From a virus, in the IMG/VR virus record IMGVR_UViG_3300037808_000510, positions 1 through 20,569 of that record: a stretch of DNA of 20,569 nt; one strand, written 5' to 3'. The notes below the pieces were generated by a model. That model ran no database searches. It was not told where the DNA came from and worked only from the letters and a program-made list of their open reading frames with translations. This document shows, in pieces, positions 4,239-11,896 of the stretch (positions are counted from its first letter, which is position 1; each line of letters starts with the position of its first letter). Position numbers and translations under genes: made by a program.

Positions 4239-4618
4239 GCCGCTGGACGACCGTCAACAAGGCGAAGGCCCGCGCGCGCAAGAGCGGCAAGGTCGGAGGC
4301 ATGAACAAGACCGAGGCAGAATATGCCGGGCGGCTCGAAGGCCACGCACGCCTCGGGTATATCGTATCGTGGGCATTCGAGCGCGTCTCGTTCAAGCTCG
4401 GTGAGGGTTGCTGGTATCGGCCTGACTTCTACGTGGTCGGGAACAATCACGTTGAAATCCACGAGGTCAAAGGGACGCGCGGCTTCAAGCTCGACCCGCA
4501 AGGCCGAGTGAAGCTCCGGGTCGCCGCCGCCCTTCACCCTGAGCTTGTGTTCTTTCAAGCCGTCAAACAAACGAAGAAGGCCGGCGGAGGGTTCGCCGTC
4601 GAGGAGGTGAAGGCATGA
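4235..4618 (+). CDS. DUF1064/resolvase-like PD-(D/E)XK endonuclease
   Basis: This 127-residue protein resembles the small phage nucleases grouped as DUF1064 and the Holliday-junction-resolvase-like PD-(D/E)XK proteins. The order of elements is a basic N-terminus (residues 9-20), NKTEAEYAGRLE with E27 or E29 as the first acidic residue, hydrophobic strands, WYRPDFYVV with D64, and VEIHEVKG with E77 and K79, followed by a basic helix and a final strand (LVFFQAV). These would be the metal-binding and catalytic residues of a structure-specific endonuclease that resolves branched intermediates left by the annealase. The start is the ATG at 4235, coupled by ATGA. An in-frame open stretch further upstream is noise. 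The family identity is inferred from motif spacing, and the exact substrate is not shown. Confidence 0.7.
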   Translation: MSRWTTVNKAKARARKSGKVGGMNKTEAEYAGRLEGHARLGYIVSWAFERVSFKLGEGCWYRPDFYVVGNNHVEIHEVKGTRGFKLDPQGRVKLRVAAALHPELVFFQAVKQTKKAGGGFAVEEVKA

Positions 4619-4833
4619 GCAGACCGAAAATGGGTAGGTCGTCGGCGAATCGCCGAGCGATCAAGCGCTTCAATGCAATGGAGGATTCCGGGTCCGTGCT
4701 CCAGCGCGCCCGGAGAAGGCCGGGGATACTCGCTCACGAGAAGGAGGTCCCCACCTTCGCGCCGGCGAAGGTGAGGCGGAACGACCCGTGTCCGTGCGTG
4801 TCGTCGAAGAAGTTCAAGTGGTGCTGTCTATGA
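4615..4833 (+). CDS. Small SEC-C motif protein
   Basis: This 72-residue protein has a very basic N-terminal half (many Arg, residues 3-38) and a C-terminal SEC-C zinc motif, RNDPCPCVSSKKFKWCC, with C59, C61, C70 and C71. The family consensus has GSGKK where this protein has VSSKK. SEC-C motifs are known from SecA, where they bind SecB and zinc, and they also occur as free-standing tails on many small proteins. The basic N-terminus suggests RNA or DNA contact, or ribosome association. The gene is coupled on both sides by ATGA overlaps (4615-4618 and 4830-4833). Whether it touches the host Sec machinery is not shown by the sequence. Confidence 0.75.
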   Translation: MSRPKMGRSSANRRAIKRFNAMEDSGSVLQRARRRPGILAHEKEVPTFAPAKVRRNDPCPCVSSKKFKWCCL

Positions 4834-5518: not shown

Positions 5519-8500
5519 TTAGCCAACCTGTTCGCAGGTGAAGTAGAGCGGGTAGAACAACCGGTTAGTGCCGGAGTTTTGGAAGACGCCGATCTCGATG
5601 TACTGACCGGCGGTCGTCTTGACGAGCCCATTCACCTCTTGCGTCTCGAACTGTCCACCGTTGCCGGCCTGCGCCGAGATCGCGTCGGCCGTGCCGTTGA
5701 CCGTAATAGACATTTGGCGCGTACCGGTGCCGTTAATATCCCATGTGCCTTTCGCGCCGACGCGCCAAGTGCCAGCACCGGGTGAGATTCGCGAGGTGTT
5801 CGAGCTTGTAGAGTGCCAGCCCAGATTGTCCCAGTGCTCGTGCGACCAAGTGACCGAGGTCAAGCCCCCGCCCGTCGTGATCGACTGCGAGGCGTTATTG
5901 TTGTGGACCTTCGCGGTGTAGTTCCAGCCGAGTTCGAGCGCAGTCGTCGCCGAGTTGACGCGGACGGGCGTGTAGCTTTGACTCCCGAAGCTCCCCGCCG
6001 TGTCGGTGAGTCCGAGCCATGTCGACGCGCCTCCGCCCCAAGCCGTGTCCGTCGTCCCGTTCCAGTAGTAGGCCTCGTCGTCGTCGGAGTCGATCCAGAA
6101 TCCCCGGTTGCTCGCCGTGAACTCCGACGGCCGGGTCGAGACCGCTTCGATCTCGACGCCGCGAGGGTCGACCCAGTCCGCCGTGAGCTTCTGGCACGTG
6201 ACGTCCTGGTGAAACTCAATGTTGCCATTGGACGAGTCGGTCGAGAAGTAGTCGTAGGTGTCGTCGAAGAGGCCGAACCCGCCGGCGAACTGTCGCAGGC
6301 TCGCCGTGTAGGTGTCGGCCGTGTCGGTGAAGTCTGCCCGCGCGCCGGCGAGGTGGTGCGTGCCGGTCGTGTTGACCGCGAACTGCTGCGTCGTCGCGAC
6401 GCCGTCGGCGTGAGGCTGGAAGAGCATACCGCCGTTCGTCGAGGACGCCGCGAGCTTCACGCCGGTCCCTTGAACGCCGACGCTGCTCAAGCTCTGATTC
6501 GGAGTGCCGTAGTAGGTCGAGCCGAGCCCCTCGGGGTAGAAGAGGCCGACGTCACTCCGCGCGTGCACGTAGGTCCCTGCGAGGACCGCAGCGAGCGTAG
6601 CCGGGTCGGTGATCTCAGCCGGCCCGAATACGACGCCGCCCTCGATCGGCTTCCCGTCGTTCGCGAGCGACTCCCATGAGCCGTCGCCGGCGCCGACCAC
6701 TGTCATGCCGCCGACGCTACCTGCGTTCGCCGCGAGGTGCACCTCGTTCTGGATCCAGCCGCCGGCCGTGAAGTCTGTCTGCCCGCCTGCCGTCGCGTAG
6801 GCGTCGAGCTTGATTCCGCCGCCGGCCGCCATGGTCTGGAGCATTGTCGGAGTCCGCGAGGTCGCGCCGCCCGACCGCTCCTTCTTCGCCGCGTCACCGT
6901 CACCGACGCGAGGCGGAGGGTAGGCCTTCGGTCGACCGTAGGCGTCGAGCACGCCGGTCGACACGAGGAGTTGGTGCGTCGCGTAGGGGAGAGAGCCGCC
7001 GCCGAAGACCGAGAACGAGTTCGCCGGCAAGTCGGTGTCGCGAATGTTCCCACCCGGCGGGTAGTGACCTCCGCCTTGACCTCCGCGCCCGACGCTCGTG
7101 TATCCCTGCGCGCCTCCGCCGCCGGCCTTCTGCCGAGGTCGCGTCGGCTCACCAGGGCCGGGCTCACCAGGGACCGGCTCGCCGGAGTTCGGCCAAGGCG
7201 TGCCGGGTCCTTCCTGGTCCGACCCGGTGGTGCCGGGCTCGCCGGTGCCGTCCGGTTTCGTCGTCGTCGTCGTGCCCTCGGATCCTGGCCCAGTGCCGGG
7301 AGGGTAAGAGACCGGAGGCGTCCAAGTGTCGGCGCCGGTGTTCGCGAAGATCCCGCCGCCCGGCGCGCCGGAGGTCGCCGAGTTCAACACGGCCGGCTGT
7401 CCGGTGCCTCCGCCGCCAGTCATTGCGTCTTGCCCGCCGCGCTCGCGCGTGCCGCCTACCGCCGTCTGGCAATCCTTCGGCGGAGGCTGCGAGAATGGCG
7501 GAGCAGTCTCGGTGAGGTGAGGCGGGGGAGTCGTCGTCGCCTGCGTCGTCGTCCGCTTGTCCTCGGGGACGTAGAAGAAGGCCTCGGCGGTCCACCTCCA
7601 CTTACCAGGGCCGACGCCCTTCGCCCACTCGTGAGGCATTGCCGGATCCCAGCGGAGGTGAACCGGCGCTAGGAACGGGCCGCCGACCGTCGGTTCTTCG
7701 TAGGCCTGCACCTCAAAGTCGAGGGGGCCGTCGCCGACTTCATTCTTGAAGAGCGCGTTAGCGTGAATGTGCGCGGCGTTGATCGGTAGCCCGTCGACGG
7801 TCCGGCCGATCGTGTGCACGTCCTGATTCTCGCCGACCTCAATGAAGCCGCCCTGCCTTGCCGTCGTGCTCGCGACGATCAAGTTGCTAGCAGCCGGAGC
7901 GTCGGCACCTCCCGGCGCGTCCTTCGGGTCGGGCTCGATCGGTCGGCCGGAGCTTGAGAACGGCGACCCCGGCTCGCCTGCGCCGGTCCCTGTCCGTTGA
8001 TCCGGCGTCGTCGATTTGCTCCCACGGATCCTGTCTTGAAGCTCCTTTAGGTAGTCGGAGACGAGCGTCACCGCGCCTGTCTGCCCCGACTTGTCCTCGC
8101 CTTGCCCCGGAGCTTCCTCCGGGTCCGGCGCGACGGGTCCGGCACTCGGCGCGCCGCCGGTGTCGACGACGTAGCCGTAGCCCGCGATCCCGTCCTGATC
8201 GGCGGTCGTGAGTTGCCAGGCAAGCGCGCCGACCTCGGGTGCCGCTTGGATCACTCGCCAGAACGAGTGAACGTGCGCGCGCCGAGTCTCGTCGGGTTCG
8301 TCCTCGACCGTGAGGTCGTAGACGAAGGTGCCGATCTCCGGGTCGCCTGCATTGTTGACCGCGATCAAGTTCGACGAGGTGACGGGGATCCCGAGAAGGT
8401 TCTGCTCGTTCTCGTTCGTCGACGCGAGGACGACGATCGGGGTCTTCTTCGGAATGTCCGGCGACCCCGGCGGGAGCGTCACGAGGACACCCTTGTCGAA

Positions 8501-8896
8501 TCGCTCGTCGAGCTTCCAATCGTCGCCCGAGAGTCCGACCTTGATCGTGCGCGGAGCTTCGGCCGCGTCTTGCTGGTCGCGCGTGCGCGTGCTCCCGTTG
8601 TCCTCGGCCGCCTGCGGCTTCTTCGACGCGCTCGTTGTCAGCCCGGGAGCGACGAAGAACCACGCGCCCATTTGCCGGTCCTCCGGCGAGGCCTGAGGCC
8701 AATGGAAGCCGCCAAGCAAATCGCCGCAAGTCATGACCGCCGAGTCAGACCCTTCGTGCCCCTCGAAGATCCAGTCGCCGAACTCGGTGCGACCCTCGAT
8801 CCGCGCGACGCGGACCGCCTCACGGTGTTCTGGGAGGAGTCCTCGGTGATCCTGTAGCGGCAGAATGCCGAGTTGCTTGTAGCCTCCGAGCTTCAT
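5519..8896 (-). CDS. Large tail fibre / receptor-binding protein with C1q-like tip
   Basis: This 1125-residue protein is the largest in the window. The N-terminus (1-110) is a compact domain that probably attaches to the tail. Two β-rich modules (about 115-260 and 345-450), each containing an A-H-(V/I)-H element, alternate with disordered Pro/Gly/Asp/Thr-rich linkers (about 262-340 and 450-615). The second linker holds runs such as TTTTT and TTTQATTTPPP. From 615 onwards the chain is β-structured with many Gly and Thr, including a fibre-like FWIDSDDDEAYYWNGTTDTAW segment (about 930). The last 100 residues (GTWRVGAKGTWDIN to LFYPLYFTCEQVG) look like a C1q/TNF-type jelly-roll trimer tip that could bind the receptor. 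The start overlaps the glycosyltransferase stop as ATGA. Domain names are inferred from sequence style. Confidence 0.8.
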   Translation of the reverse strand: MKLGGYKQLGILPLQDHRGLLPEHREAVRVARIEGRTEFGDWIFEGHEGSDSAVMTCGDLLGGFHWPQASPEDRQMGAWFFVAPGLTTSASKKPQAAEDNGSTRTRDQQDAAEAPRTIKVGLSGDDWKLDERFDKGVLVTLPPGSPDIPKKTPIVVLASTNENEQNLLGIPVTSSNLIAVNNAGDPEIGTFVYDLTVEDEPDETRRAHVHSFWRVIQAAPEVGALAWQLTTADQDGIAGYGYVVDTGGAPSAGPVAPDPEEAPGQGEDKSGQTGAVTLVSDYLKELQDRIRGSKSTTPDQRTGTGAGEPGSPFSSSGRPIEPDPKDAPGGADAPAASNLIVASTTARQGGFIEVGENQDVHTIGRTVDGLPINAAHIHANALFKNEVGDGPLDFEVQAYEEPTVGGPFLAPVHLRWDPAMPHEWAKGVGPGKWRWTAEAFFYVPEDKRTTTQATTTPPPHLTETAPPFSQPPPKDCQTAVGGTRERGGQDAMTGGGGTGQPAVLNSATSGAPGGGIFANTGADTWTPPVSYPPGTGPGSEGTTTTTKPDGTGEPGTTGSDQEGPGTPWPNSGEPVPGEPGPGEPTRPRQKAGGGGAQGYTSVGRGGQGGGHYPPGGNIRDTDLPANSFSVFGGGSLPYATHQLLVSTGVLDAYGRPKAYPPPRVGDGDAAKKERSGGATSRTPTMLQTMAAGGGIKLDAYATAGGQTDFTAGGWIQNEVHLAANAGSVGGMTVVGAGDGSWESLANDGKPIEGGVVFGPAEITDPATLAAVLAGTYVHARSDVGLFYPEGLGSTYYGTPNQSLSSVGVQGTGVKLAASSTNGGMLFQPHADGVATTQQFAVNTTGTHHLAGARADFTDTADTYTASLRQFAGGFGLFDDTYDYFSTDSSNGNIEFHQDVTCQKLTADWVDPRGVEIEAVSTRPSEFTASNRGFWIDSDDDEAYYWNGTTDTAWGGGASTWLGLTDTAGSFGSQSYTPVRVNSATTALELGWNYTAKVHNNNASQSITTGGGLTSVTWSHEHWDNLGWHSTSSNTSRISPGAGTWRVGAKGTWDINGTGTRQMSITVNGTADAISAQAGNGGQFETQEVNGLVKTTAGQYIEIGVFQNSGTNRLFYPLYFTCEQVG

Positions 8897-9738
8897 GCCG
8901 CGACCTCTTCGAGTTGCTCATAGAAGGCCGCCGCGCGAACGATCTCCCGGTGTACCCAGCCCTGAACGGACGCGACGGGAAGCCTCGGCGGATCCCATGG
9001 CGACCCGTCGCCGGGCTCAGCATACCAACCCTTCGCGAAGTGCGAGTTAGGGTACGCGTAGTGAATGAGCGCGGACGTGACGCGCGCCTCCGGCCGCCAG
9101 TTCGTTTGTGTGAGCGTGATCCGGTTCGGAGCGAGGTCGAGGGCGGCGAGCGCGAGACTCCACGCGCGCATTTGGTCGGACCAATGGAACTCGTGCTCGG
9201 CGAATCGGTCCATGAAGTGCCACCAGGCCCAGCCGATAGTTTCTGCCTGCTCGATCGGGACGACGTAGGGGACGCGAGACCCCCATGTCGTGTCTGCGTT
9301 CTCGCCGAGCTTGAGACCGGCCTCGGTCGCGAGCTTCTTCGCGAGGCCTGTCGTGAGATCGTTCGGGCACCGGTCGACCGAGAGGACACCAGGCCACGAG
9401 ACTTTGCGGGTCCATACGAGGTCAGGATCCATGAGGACGATATGGGTCGCGTCAAGGTCGCGACCGATCCGCGCGGCGTCGATCAAGGCCGCAACGGTGT
9501 TGCGCGCCGCCCAGTCGACCCCGTTGTGCACGCGGTGATTCCTGGTCGGGACGACGAGCGCGCCGGCCTTCTCTGCCTCCGTGAAGCCGGCGTCGAGGTT
9601 CTCATGTCCGCCGTGAACGAGGATCAATGGCGACACGCCCTGGTGGGTCATACACGAGTAAGCGAATACCTTCGCCTGCCAAGCGTGGTAGTGGCGGTTT
9701 TCGCATGACGCGACGACGAGGTGCCTAGGGTTCGACAT
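8893..9738 (-). CDS. HPAT/SerGT-like peptidyl O-glycosyltransferase
   Basis: This 281-residue protein resembles eukaryotic hydroxyproline O-arabinosyltransferases (GT95) and peptidyl-serine galactosyltransferases (GT96). The shared features are YHAWQAKVFAY at 17-27 (compare the Y-x-x-W-Q motif of HPATs), an LVHGG/HENL segment, a long helix leading into HIVLMDPDLVW at 99-109 with the D104-x-D106 metal site in place of the usual EPDH, and IHYAYPNSHFAKGWY at 225-239, like the I-H-Y-x-Y-…-K-G block near the HPAT C-terminus. There is no signal peptide or membrane segment, so it would act in the cytoplasm on nascent virion protein. It overlaps the upstream tail gene by 14 bases and the fibre start by 4. 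The sugar and acceptor are unknown. The closest alternative call is a generic GT-A glycosyltransferase. Confidence 0.65.
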   Translation of the reverse strand: MSNPRHLVVASCENRHYHAWQAKVFAYSCMTHQGVSPLILVHGGHENLDAGFTEAEKAGALVVPTRNHRVHNGVDWAARNTVAALIDAARIGRDLDATHIVLMDPDLVWTRKVSWPGVLSVDRCPNDLTTGLAKKLATEAGLKLGENADTTWGSRVPYVVPIEQAETIGWAWWHFMDRFAEHEFHWSDQMRAWSLALAALDLAPNRITLTQTNWRPEARVTSALIHYAYPNSHFAKGWYAEPGDGSPWDPPRLPVASVQGWVHREIVRAAAFYEQLEEVAA

Positions 9739-11896
9739 AACCTTCGATCATGCGCCGAACGTCCGGCGGTAGCAAGGCCTGAGCGTCGACAGCCGACGGC
9801 GTAGACGCAAGCTCGACGGTCGTGAGCGCGCCCTCGCGTGTGAAGGAGTGAACGACACGGTCGACCGATCCGGCGATCGTGGCAGGCCTGTAGTCCGTCG
9901 TCAGGCCGCCCTCGTTGTGATCCCGGAAGCGGATAAACTCGGCGAGCGCGTAGGCCTTCGCGACCGAGGTCAACTCGCCGAGGTTCACGGGGTCGCCGAG
10001 GTTCGGGAGGTTGAGGTCGGTGCCGGCCGCGTCGAAGGCCGCGAGAAACTCTGCCTCAATGTCGTCGTTCCACGGGAAGCGAGCGACCGCCCTCGGAGCC
10101 CGAACGTAGAGTTCGAGGATCGGACCCTTGCCGGCGACCGACCTCGTGAGCGTCGGCGTCAGTTGTGCCTCGGCCTCTCCGACGGTGACGTCGATCGCAT
10201 GAAAACGCCGGCGGTCATTCGGCGCGCCGACCGCGATCGTGAGGAGGATCGAGACCTCGTGGTCCACGGTCAAGTCGGTGTCGGCGAGCATGAGCTTCCG
10301 CGCCCTGAAGTCGGCGCGCCCTCCCTCTTCGGTGACGGTAGCGGACCGAACGTAGCGGTCGGCGACTCCGGTGAAGTCCGTCACGAGTTCGACGCGAAGG
10401 ATCCCGAGGTCCTGGTCGACGATCGTCACCTTCGCCGGCGCGGCCTGTAGGTCGCGGAGTGAGTTGTCGATAATGGGGGTCGAGTTCGTCAGGCTGTTGT
10501 TGAGCAGAGGCGAGGCGTATCGGTTCGCGGTCAGTTGCCAGATCTCGTCGTCGACCGTGTCGTAGCCGGCACCGAGCGGAGTCCATGCACGGACGACGCA
10601 GTAGTCGAGGAACGCGAGCGCCGGAGCGCGCGACCCCGTCTCGTAGTCCTCGATCCCGACTCGGTTCGCCTGGTAGGACTTGATCCGGTCGTTCCACTTC
10701 TTCGTGACACGGTAGGTCCGCCGGTAGTGCGCGCGAAGCTGTGCGATCCTCACGGCCCACAAGCCGCTCGGGTCAAGCTGCGGAGCGCTGTAAGAGTTGA
10801 TCGCGTTCGAGAGCCAGAGCTTGCGGATCCTCTCGCGGGTGAGCGGTAGCCGCTCGGCGAGCGGGTTACCGGTTGTGTTCTCCGCGAGGAACAATATGTA
10901 ATCGTCGAGCGAGACCCATGTCCCTTGAACGACCGCGCGCCCGTTTATCGTCCCGTCCTCGGGGAGGGGGATCACGTTGACGCAGCGAAGAAGCTCGGCT
11001 TGCTGCCGCGTTCGCGTCGTGTTGCTAGCGCCGGTCGGGTCGCTCTCCGACGCGTTTATCCGCGCCTCCATGAACCGGTCGAAGTAGACGCGGACCTTCT
11101 CCGGCCGTTCCATGACTCGGTTCTGAAGCTCGAAGAGTTGCGACCCGACGATCGGGCGAAGGCCTGCCTCGTCCGCGCGCGTGCGGGTCGTACCCTGCGC
11201 CGGGAGGCCAAGCTGAGCGACCTCGCCCTCGTTCTGAGTGTCGTAGAGCACGAGCTTGCCCTCGTCGTCGACGAAGGTGTTCGCCGCTCCGCCGAGGTAG
11301 CCCATGAGCGCAGCGATCGCCGCGTCGCCTTGGAAGTTGAAGATCCAGCCCTCGACCTGAACCGTCGAGGTGGAGAGGACGTTGTCACGGTCGCGCCAGT
11401 TGCCGGCGCCGACGACGAGGTCGAGGATATCCGTCGCGACCTCGATCACGAGCCAAGCCCGAAGGCCGAGGTTGAGCGAGTAGGGCGCGTAGGCGACGTC
11501 GTCGGACACAACGGTCGTCTGACTCGCAGCGTCCGGCGGGAGGTTGCTGCCGCGCGGCTCTGACCGCCTCACGAGCGGCGTCTTCCGCCTCACGTTGTAA
11601 TGCCGAGCGACGAAGACGTAGGGAAAGGCCCAGCGAGGGTCGGTGAGCCGGAGCGTCGTTGTGTTGGGGTTCGCTGTCGGTGAGAGACCTATGATAGTCA
11701 GCCGCTTCTGATCGTGGGTCCTGAGCCCGTCCTCAAGCGACAGCGCCGACCCGTGCACCTCGGCGTTATCGAAGAGCCCCTCGGCCGTGTCGCGATCGAC
11801 TTCGAGGTCGAGCACGTATGGCGAGGTCCCGGCCTGCTCGACCCAGTTCGTCGTAGCCTCGACTTCGAGCGTGACGCCGTCAAGTCGAACGATCAC
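9725..11896 (-). CDS. Large tail/baseplate protein, hub candidate
   Basis: This 723-residue protein is probably part of the tail tip or baseplate. It starts with GTG in a GTGA overlap with the preceding gene, so it is translated by coupling. The N-terminus (1-105) is β-rich (MIVRLDGVTLEVE...) and resembles the opening strands of tail-hub proteins. Residues 145-260 contain helices and a FVDDEGKLVLYD strand pair, as in hub domains. Residues 300-480 are helical, with many Arg and Tyr. The C-terminal third returns to β-sandwich-like sequence. It lies between the tape-measure candidate plus a first tail-tip protein and the fibre genes, the usual place for Dit/Tal/hub proteins. No peptidase or lysozyme motif is visible. 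The assignment rests on position and style, not on a named family. Confidence 0.6.
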   Translation of the reverse strand: MIVRLDGVTLEVEATTNWVEQAGTSPYVLDLEVDRDTAEGLFDNAEVHGSALSLEDGLRTHDQKRLTIIGLSPTANPNTTTLRLTDPRWAFPYVFVARHYNVRRKTPLVRRSEPRGSNLPPDAASQTTVVSDDVAYAPYSLNLGLRAWLVIEVATDILDLVVGAGNWRDRDNVLSTSTVQVEGWIFNFQGDAAIAALMGYLGGAANTFVDDEGKLVLYDTQNEGEVAQLGLPAQGTTRTRADEAGLRPIVGSQLFELQNRVMERPEKVRVYFDRFMEARINASESDPTGASNTTRTRQQAELLRCVNVIPLPEDGTINGRAVVQGTWVSLDDYILFLAENTTGNPLAERLPLTRERIRKLWLSNAINSYSAPQLDPSGLWAVRIAQLRAHYRRTYRVTKKWNDRIKSYQANRVGIEDYETGSRAPALAFLDYCVVRAWTPLGAGYDTVDDEIWQLTANRYASPLLNNSLTNSTPIIDNSLRDLQAAPAKVTIVDQDLGILRVELVTDFTGVADRYVRSATVTEEGGRADFRARKLMLADTDLTVDHEVSILLTIAVGAPNDRRRFHAIDVTVGEAEAQLTPTLTRSVAGKGPILELYVRAPRAVARFPWNDDIEAEFLAAFDAAGTDLNLPNLGDPVNLGELTSVAKAYALAEFIRFRDHNEGGLTTDYRPATIAGSVDRVVHSFTREGALTTVELASTPSAVDAQALLPPDVRRMIEGYVEP

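Follow-up and report, generated by a model that had tools for sequence, protein, structure and literature searches.

A virus gene that lies between a structural gene and a fibre-like gene of a tail operon raises the question of whether phages encode relatives of the enzymes that glycosylate hydroxyproline or serine in plants, and what such an enzyme would act on. Hydroxyproline O-arabinosyltransferase (HPAT, family GT95) and SerGT (family GT96) transfer L-Araf to Hyp or Gal to Ser, and the family is known mainly from plants and algae. To our knowledge, few cases of glycosylation of phage virion proteins are known. A glycosyltransferase locked among tail genes over deep divergence leaves a short list of acceptors and, if the kinship to HPAT is real, a mainly plant and algal family has viral relatives.

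A glycosyltransferase gene in a tail operon

The window, meaning here the whole stretch of 20,569 bases that was analyzed (virus record IMGVR_UViG_3300037808_000510 of IMG/VR), is probably a fragment. Its minus strand carries head and tail genes, including a major-capsid match, phrog_26 (neck/tail-completion) and phrog_1731 (virion structural), and its plus strand encodes an ERF annealing protein and a PD-(D/E)XK exonuclease. The plus strand also holds a 72-aa open reading frame (4615-4833) with the C-terminal end RRNDPCPCVSSKKFKWCCL, which we take to resemble a SEC-C zinc motif.

An earlier sequence-only reading had proposed an HPAT/SerGT-like glycosyltransferase inside the tail operon, and the open reading frame was found at the coordinates given there; it lies on the minus strand (Table 1). 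The claimed overlaps with both neighbours are present, while the names "tail protein" and "fibre" come only from gene order and composition; neither neighbour product had a match in Pfam (E<=1), PHROG (E<=0.01) or NCBIfam (E<=0.1). The GC and GC3 values of the gene are close to those of its neighbours and thus give no sign of recent import.

Table 1. Features of the glycosyltransferase locus in the window (positions 1 to 20,569).
Feature	Position	Strand	Remarks
Glycosyltransferase gene, 281 aa, ATG start	8893..9738	minus	GT-A-like, distant HPAT (PF23452) resemblance; orthologues in L001, L064/L065, L066
Overlap with 3' end of upstream 723-aa gene, 14 nt	9725..9738	minus	Same junction in L001, L065, L066
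ATGA stop/start overlap with downstream fibre-like gene	8893..8896	minus	Same junction in L001, L066
Upstream 723-aa structural (tail) gene	9725..11896	minus	Fixed neighbour; order kept in L001, L065, L066
Downstream 1125-aa fibre-like gene, candidate acceptor	5519..8896	minus	Conserved N-terminal part, Pro/Gly/Thr-rich middle, variable tip
W20-Q21 of Y-x-x-W-Q motif, after first beta strand	9676..9681	minus	Invariant in four family members and marine family; W11-Q12 in HPAT bait
D104-P105-D106, presumed metal/nucleotide-sugar site, end of strand 99-103	9421..9429	minus	Invariant across both divergent phage families; strand from model; E-P-D in HPAT bait
W186-S-D-Q-M190, start of helix 186-199	9169..9183	minus	W and M invariant in both phage families; W-x-x-E-M in HPAT bait
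H226-Y-A-Y229, presumed C-terminal metal/diphosphate-binding histidine	9052..9063	minus	HY invariant in both phage families and bait

Conservation of the gene and its position

Three related viral contigs encode the same protein at 81% (L001), 55-56% (L064/L065, one contig) and 55% (L066) identity, and in all four contigs, the window included, the gene lies between the same two genes. Substitution analysis gave dN 0.129 and dS 1.931 between the window and L001 (dN/dS ~0.07, with dS saturated) and dN 0.014 and dS 0.081 between L065 and L066 (dN/dS ~0.17). Between the window and L001, the glycosyltransferase is at least as conserved as the other structural genes compared. Given the low dN/dS and the position kept in three other contigs, the 281-aa open reading frame is a real gene under purifying selection, with conserved position.

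Comparison of the 281-aa protein with annotated phages and plasmids by tblastn gave no match. Peptide-pattern scans of 84,980 bacterial and archaeal genomes, based on the 281-aa protein and on alignment A2, recovered no relative, with the limit that such scans miss distant relatives. A scan of viral contigs for the upstream tail gene gave no match, missing even L001, which shows that scans of this type are insensitive. We regard the glycosyltransferase as a genuine, small and hitherto unnamed phage GT-A family that is fixed in a tail operon.

Modification of the host surface is a common role of phage glycosyltransferases, and the enzyme could in principle sugar host surface structures, for receptor masking or seroconversion, and not the virion. 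This appears unlikely given the start/stop overlaps within a structural operon in four contigs. Furthermore, the N-terminus (MSNPRHLVVASCENRHYHAWQ) leads directly into the catalytic fold, with no hydrophobic anchor or signal peptide evident by eye, whereas seroconversion clusters usually include membrane proteins.

Predicted fold

An AlphaFold2 model built from seven sequences was of moderate confidence (pLDDT 64, pTM 0.69), with C-terminal residues 210-268 below pLDDT 50. It superseded an earlier model from two sequences (pLDDT 49), which, poorer as it was, gave a similar GT-A type of Foldseek matches. Searched against the PDB, the seven-sequence model had 30 matches at E<=1e-3, every one a GT-A enzyme, with TM-scores of 0.27-0.43; ABO GTA/GTB, alpha-1,3-GalT, COLGALT1, B3GNT2 and related enzymes, and GnT-I were among them. 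The best matches (GT6, COLGALT1 and other GT-A enzymes) reached TM-scores of 0.34-0.43 over long alignments. Matches in BFVD were phage proteins and giant-virus glycosyltransferases. The model has the Rossmann-like core of GT-A enzymes with a DXD motif at a strand end, placing DPD, at moderate confidence, after strand 99-103, where a GT-A metal site would lie, and the long helix that the sequence-only reading had expected ahead of DPD spans residues 74-94, before the DPD-bearing strand. On this fold, H226 is presumed to have a metal- or diphosphate-binding role. Together with the conserved gene position, the AlphaFold2 and Foldseek results make the earlier claim of a glycosyltransferase inside the tail operon well supported, with the GT-A fold as predicted by the model.

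The predicted fold also bears on a DNA substrate. Some phages encode DNA-glycosylating enzymes, such as the alpha- and beta-glucosyltransferases of T4, and the enzyme could similarly sugar modified phage DNA bases. However, the T4 enzymes have a GT-B fold while the window enzyme models as GT-A, the gene is embedded within a tail operon, and no base-hydroxymethylating or base-modifying gene was recognized among the window genes scanned, all of which makes a DNA substrate highly improbable.

A search of the PDB for an HPAT-like chain found none, and with no HPAT structure there and low TM-scores for the best matches the fold comparison decides neither for nor against kinship to HPAT. The structural matches are scattered over many GT-A families, which is in line with a generic phage GT-A enzyme that modifies a virion protein without special kinship to HPAT/SerGT, its motifs being convergent or general to GT-A.

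Motif chain and resemblance to HPAT

Residues W20, D104/D106 and H226 were found at the positions that had been named for them. As a yardstick and bait we used an approximate HPAT sequence; it scored 419 bits against PF23452 (HPAT), and is therefore a good stand-in for the family even with single wrong letters. The window protein has the collinear WQ, [DE]PD, W-x-x-[EQ]M and HY elements of HPAT/SerGT, as judged from this bait, with spacings of 82/79/35 residues as compared to 80/87/36 in the bait. Scanned as WQ-x(60-100)-[DE]PD-x(60-100)-W-x-x-[EQ]M-x(25-45)-HY, the full chain occurred in none of 200,000 shuffles of the 281-aa protein. Among 1,346 open reading frames of >=200 aa in the collected loci, many of which had been retrieved by parts of the motif, just two phage glycosyltransferase families had it, that of the window and one other.

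In Pfam, PF23452 was the sole match of the window protein (E 0.031, 14.1 bits; residues 175-238 to profile 183-252). The L001 protein matched the same family (E 0.063, 13.1 bits), and L064 and L066 had no match to it. A3, a consensus built from the four natural sequences, matched at E 0.0066, with residues 8-37 aligned to profile 3-32, a stretch that is collinear with the one aligned in the window protein. None of the natural window-family sequences reached the curated cut-off of 23.9 bits; the sole sequence above it was an artificial joint consensus of the window family and the marine family described below (E 1.3e-5, 25.2 bits). L001 also matched FAD_binding_2 at E 0.03, which was taken as chance, so a single HPAT match at 0.03 proves little alone. 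HPAT was nevertheless recurrent, and Pfam comparisons of the window family, the HPAT-like domains and the consensus sequences turned up no other GT family. An hhalign comparison with HPAT gave E 0.1, with the alignment in register. The phage profiles scored the single HPAT bait no higher than shuffles of it, and the bait itself had no match among phages and viral contigs.

The likeness to HPAT/SerGT proposed in the sequence-only reading therefore survives in part: HPAT is the best and the only recurrent Pfam family and the motif chain has HPAT-like spacing, but the scores lie below the cut-off and the bait does no better than its shuffles. The likeness goes beyond a first impression and probably reflects remote kinship, as far as sequence comparison can indicate. 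As the family threshold is not reached, the enzyme is best named HPAT-like, not a member of HPAT/SerGT. The generic GT-A enzyme introduced above is quite possible, though on balance not probable. Natural sequences below the PF23452 cut-off and the failure to separate bait from shuffles speak for it, while the recurrence of HPAT, with no other GT family appearing, and the complete motif chain with its HPAT-like spacing argue against it.

A second family in marine-type phages

A second family was found by scanning viral contigs with gapped DNA patterns derived from the motif spacing. The last such scan gave five contigs (L121, L143, L145, L157 and L166), with identical N-terminal 300 residues in L121 and L145. 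We refer to this family as marine because its neighbour genes resemble those of T4-like marine phages, with cyanophages among the matches; the label does not come from sampling sites. The gene is incomplete in L143 and L157, where it is cut off; the complete copies in L121, L145 and L166 encode 917 aa, combining an HPAT-like domain (~1-297), an O-FucT domain and a PF11397 GlcNAc-transferase domain. The name of family PF11397 recalls the Skp1 Hyp-GlcNAc transferase. The N-terminal domain matched PF23452 at E 7.7e-4 over residues 9-227 in L166 and at 0.0015 in L157, with no match for that of L121. The HPAT-like domain also matched phrog_4417 (E 1.1e-8), a profile for which the 281-aa protein, the window record and L066 gave no match. 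The phrog_4417 profile also has matches in the controls Methanocaldococcus jannaschii and Sulfolobus acidocaldarius. In seven reference phages (six cyanophages and one pelagiphage) neither PF23452 nor phrog_4417 was found.

The two phage families are alike chiefly in their motifs. Unmasked, their similarity scored 43.5-44.4 compared with 14-20 for chance pattern matches and a background maximum of 25, a comparison in which the marine sequences had been selected by motif. With the motif residues masked, the score fell from 44 to the background level of 17, a loss that again favours a generic GT-A enzyme.

A PF13640 oxygenase gene directly adjoins the marine glycosyltransferase gene in all five records, and the closest solved relatives of the L166 oxygenase are prolyl 4-hydroxylases (E 2.5e-25). 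The pair of P4H-like 2OG-Fe(II) gene and tri-domain glycosyltransferase gene occupies 6517-10524 in L166 and is also seen in L121, L143, L145 and L157. Downstream of the pair, L166 1491-6515 encodes two carbamoyltransferases, a second PF11397 GlcNAc-transferase and a nucleotide-sugar epimerase. In Synechococcus phage S-SCSM1 (L194, 5425-13507), four 2OG-Fe(II) oxygenase genes surround an O-fucosyltransferase-like gene and a carbamoyltransferase gene within 17 kb, so that 2OG oxygenases may be numerous in such phages regardless. The marine gene pair is a possible phage cassette for hydroxyproline glycosylation, and it is a more provocative lead than the HPAT likeness of the window enzyme. With a P4H and an HPAT-like gene side by side, phage hydroxyproline glycosylation becomes directly testable.

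Whether the window enzyme is itself a hydroxyproline O-glycosyltransferase, acting on prolines hydroxylated beforehand by a prolyl 4-hydroxylase of the host or of the phage, can be weighed against these findings. The P4H-like gene beside its remote marine relatives and the Pro-rich fibre linkers are in accord with such an activity. However, PF13640 was found neither in the window record nor in its three relatives, all of them fragments, the link between the two phage families is weak beyond their motifs, and marine phages can have several 2OG oxygenases in any case, as in S-SCSM1. We consider hydroxyproline an improbable acceptor for the window enzyme, and since no PF13640 hydroxylase turned up in either the window or the related contigs, Ser/Thr is no less plausible than Hyp. 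A broader and more speculative proposal, to which we give little credence, is an extensin-like pathway in phages: HPAT-related enzymes would add sugars to hydroxyproline (or Ser) in virion proteins rich in proline, a marine phage P4H would supply the hydroxyproline, and the window enzyme would be a branch of that superfamily within a tail operon. If true, HPAT/SerGT would be older than plants and algae, or shared beyond them.

Putative acceptor and function

From gene position alone, the most likely acceptor is a tail or fibre protein of the virion. The fibre-like proteins of the window and of L066 (8855-12280, plus strand) cannot be aligned at their tips, while their N-terminal part and the glycosyltransferase are conserved, a pattern that suggests, from the sequences compared, exchange of the tip. 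With the enzyme conserved while the tip varies, the acceptor is more likely to lie in a conserved portion of the tail or fibre than in the tip.

The best explanation, which we hold to be rather probable, is a metal-dependent phage GT-A glycosyltransferase that is very remotely related to HPAT/SerGT and most likely sugars a tail or fibre protein. We infer that a soluble cytoplasmic enzyme would be co-expressed late with the tail genes and, with the help of a metal ion, would move a sugar residue from a nucleotide sugar of the host onto hydroxyl groups of the tail or fibre protein. The first candidate acceptor would be the Pro/Gly/Thr/Ser-rich linker in the adjacent fibre-like protein. The gene itself, its conservation and fixed position, the motif chain and the GT-A-like model are shown by the analysis, whereas metal use, the nucleotide-sugar donor, late expression, a virion-protein acceptor and remote HPAT kinship are inferred.

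Comparison with known systems

The GT6 enzymes (ABO GTA/GTB, alpha-1,3-GalT) and COLGALT1 share the GT-A fold with the window enzyme and gave its top Foldseek matches, but at 7-15% identity and TM-scores of ~0.34-0.43, and with no sequence-family match. Mycobacteriophages such as Che8 have virion-glycosylating enzymes that are reported to target the major capsid protein (Freeman et al., 2023, as cited in PMC11256854). Like the window enzyme, these are phage-encoded glycosyltransferases with a proposed role in modifying virion proteins. In the Che8-related phage Maravista, unlike in the window, the genes lie near the 3' end of the genome and do not overlap tail genes. The marine tri-domain protein is linked to phrog_4417 through its HPAT-like domain, which also has the motif chain of the window protein, but it also contains O-FucT and PF11397 domains, and its gene adjoins one for a P4H-like protein and is not part of a tail operon.

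In plants, HPAT acts on Hyp as a type II membrane protein of the Golgi, and a relationship between GT95 and GT96 has been described (PMC8012813). In contrast, the type II membrane anchor and secretory-pathway features of HPAT/SerGT were not seen in the 281-aa protein, its sequence being judged by eye; it is an apparently soluble phage protein that scores below the family cut-off, with no Hyp-forming enzyme found nearby. A published fold classifier predicts a GT-A-like fold for GT95, the kind of fold modelled here for the window enzyme, and a possibly novel one for GT96 (PMC8476585). The window enzyme shares with HPAT/SerGT the order and near-identical spacing of its motifs, and HPAT is its sole recurrent Pfam family.
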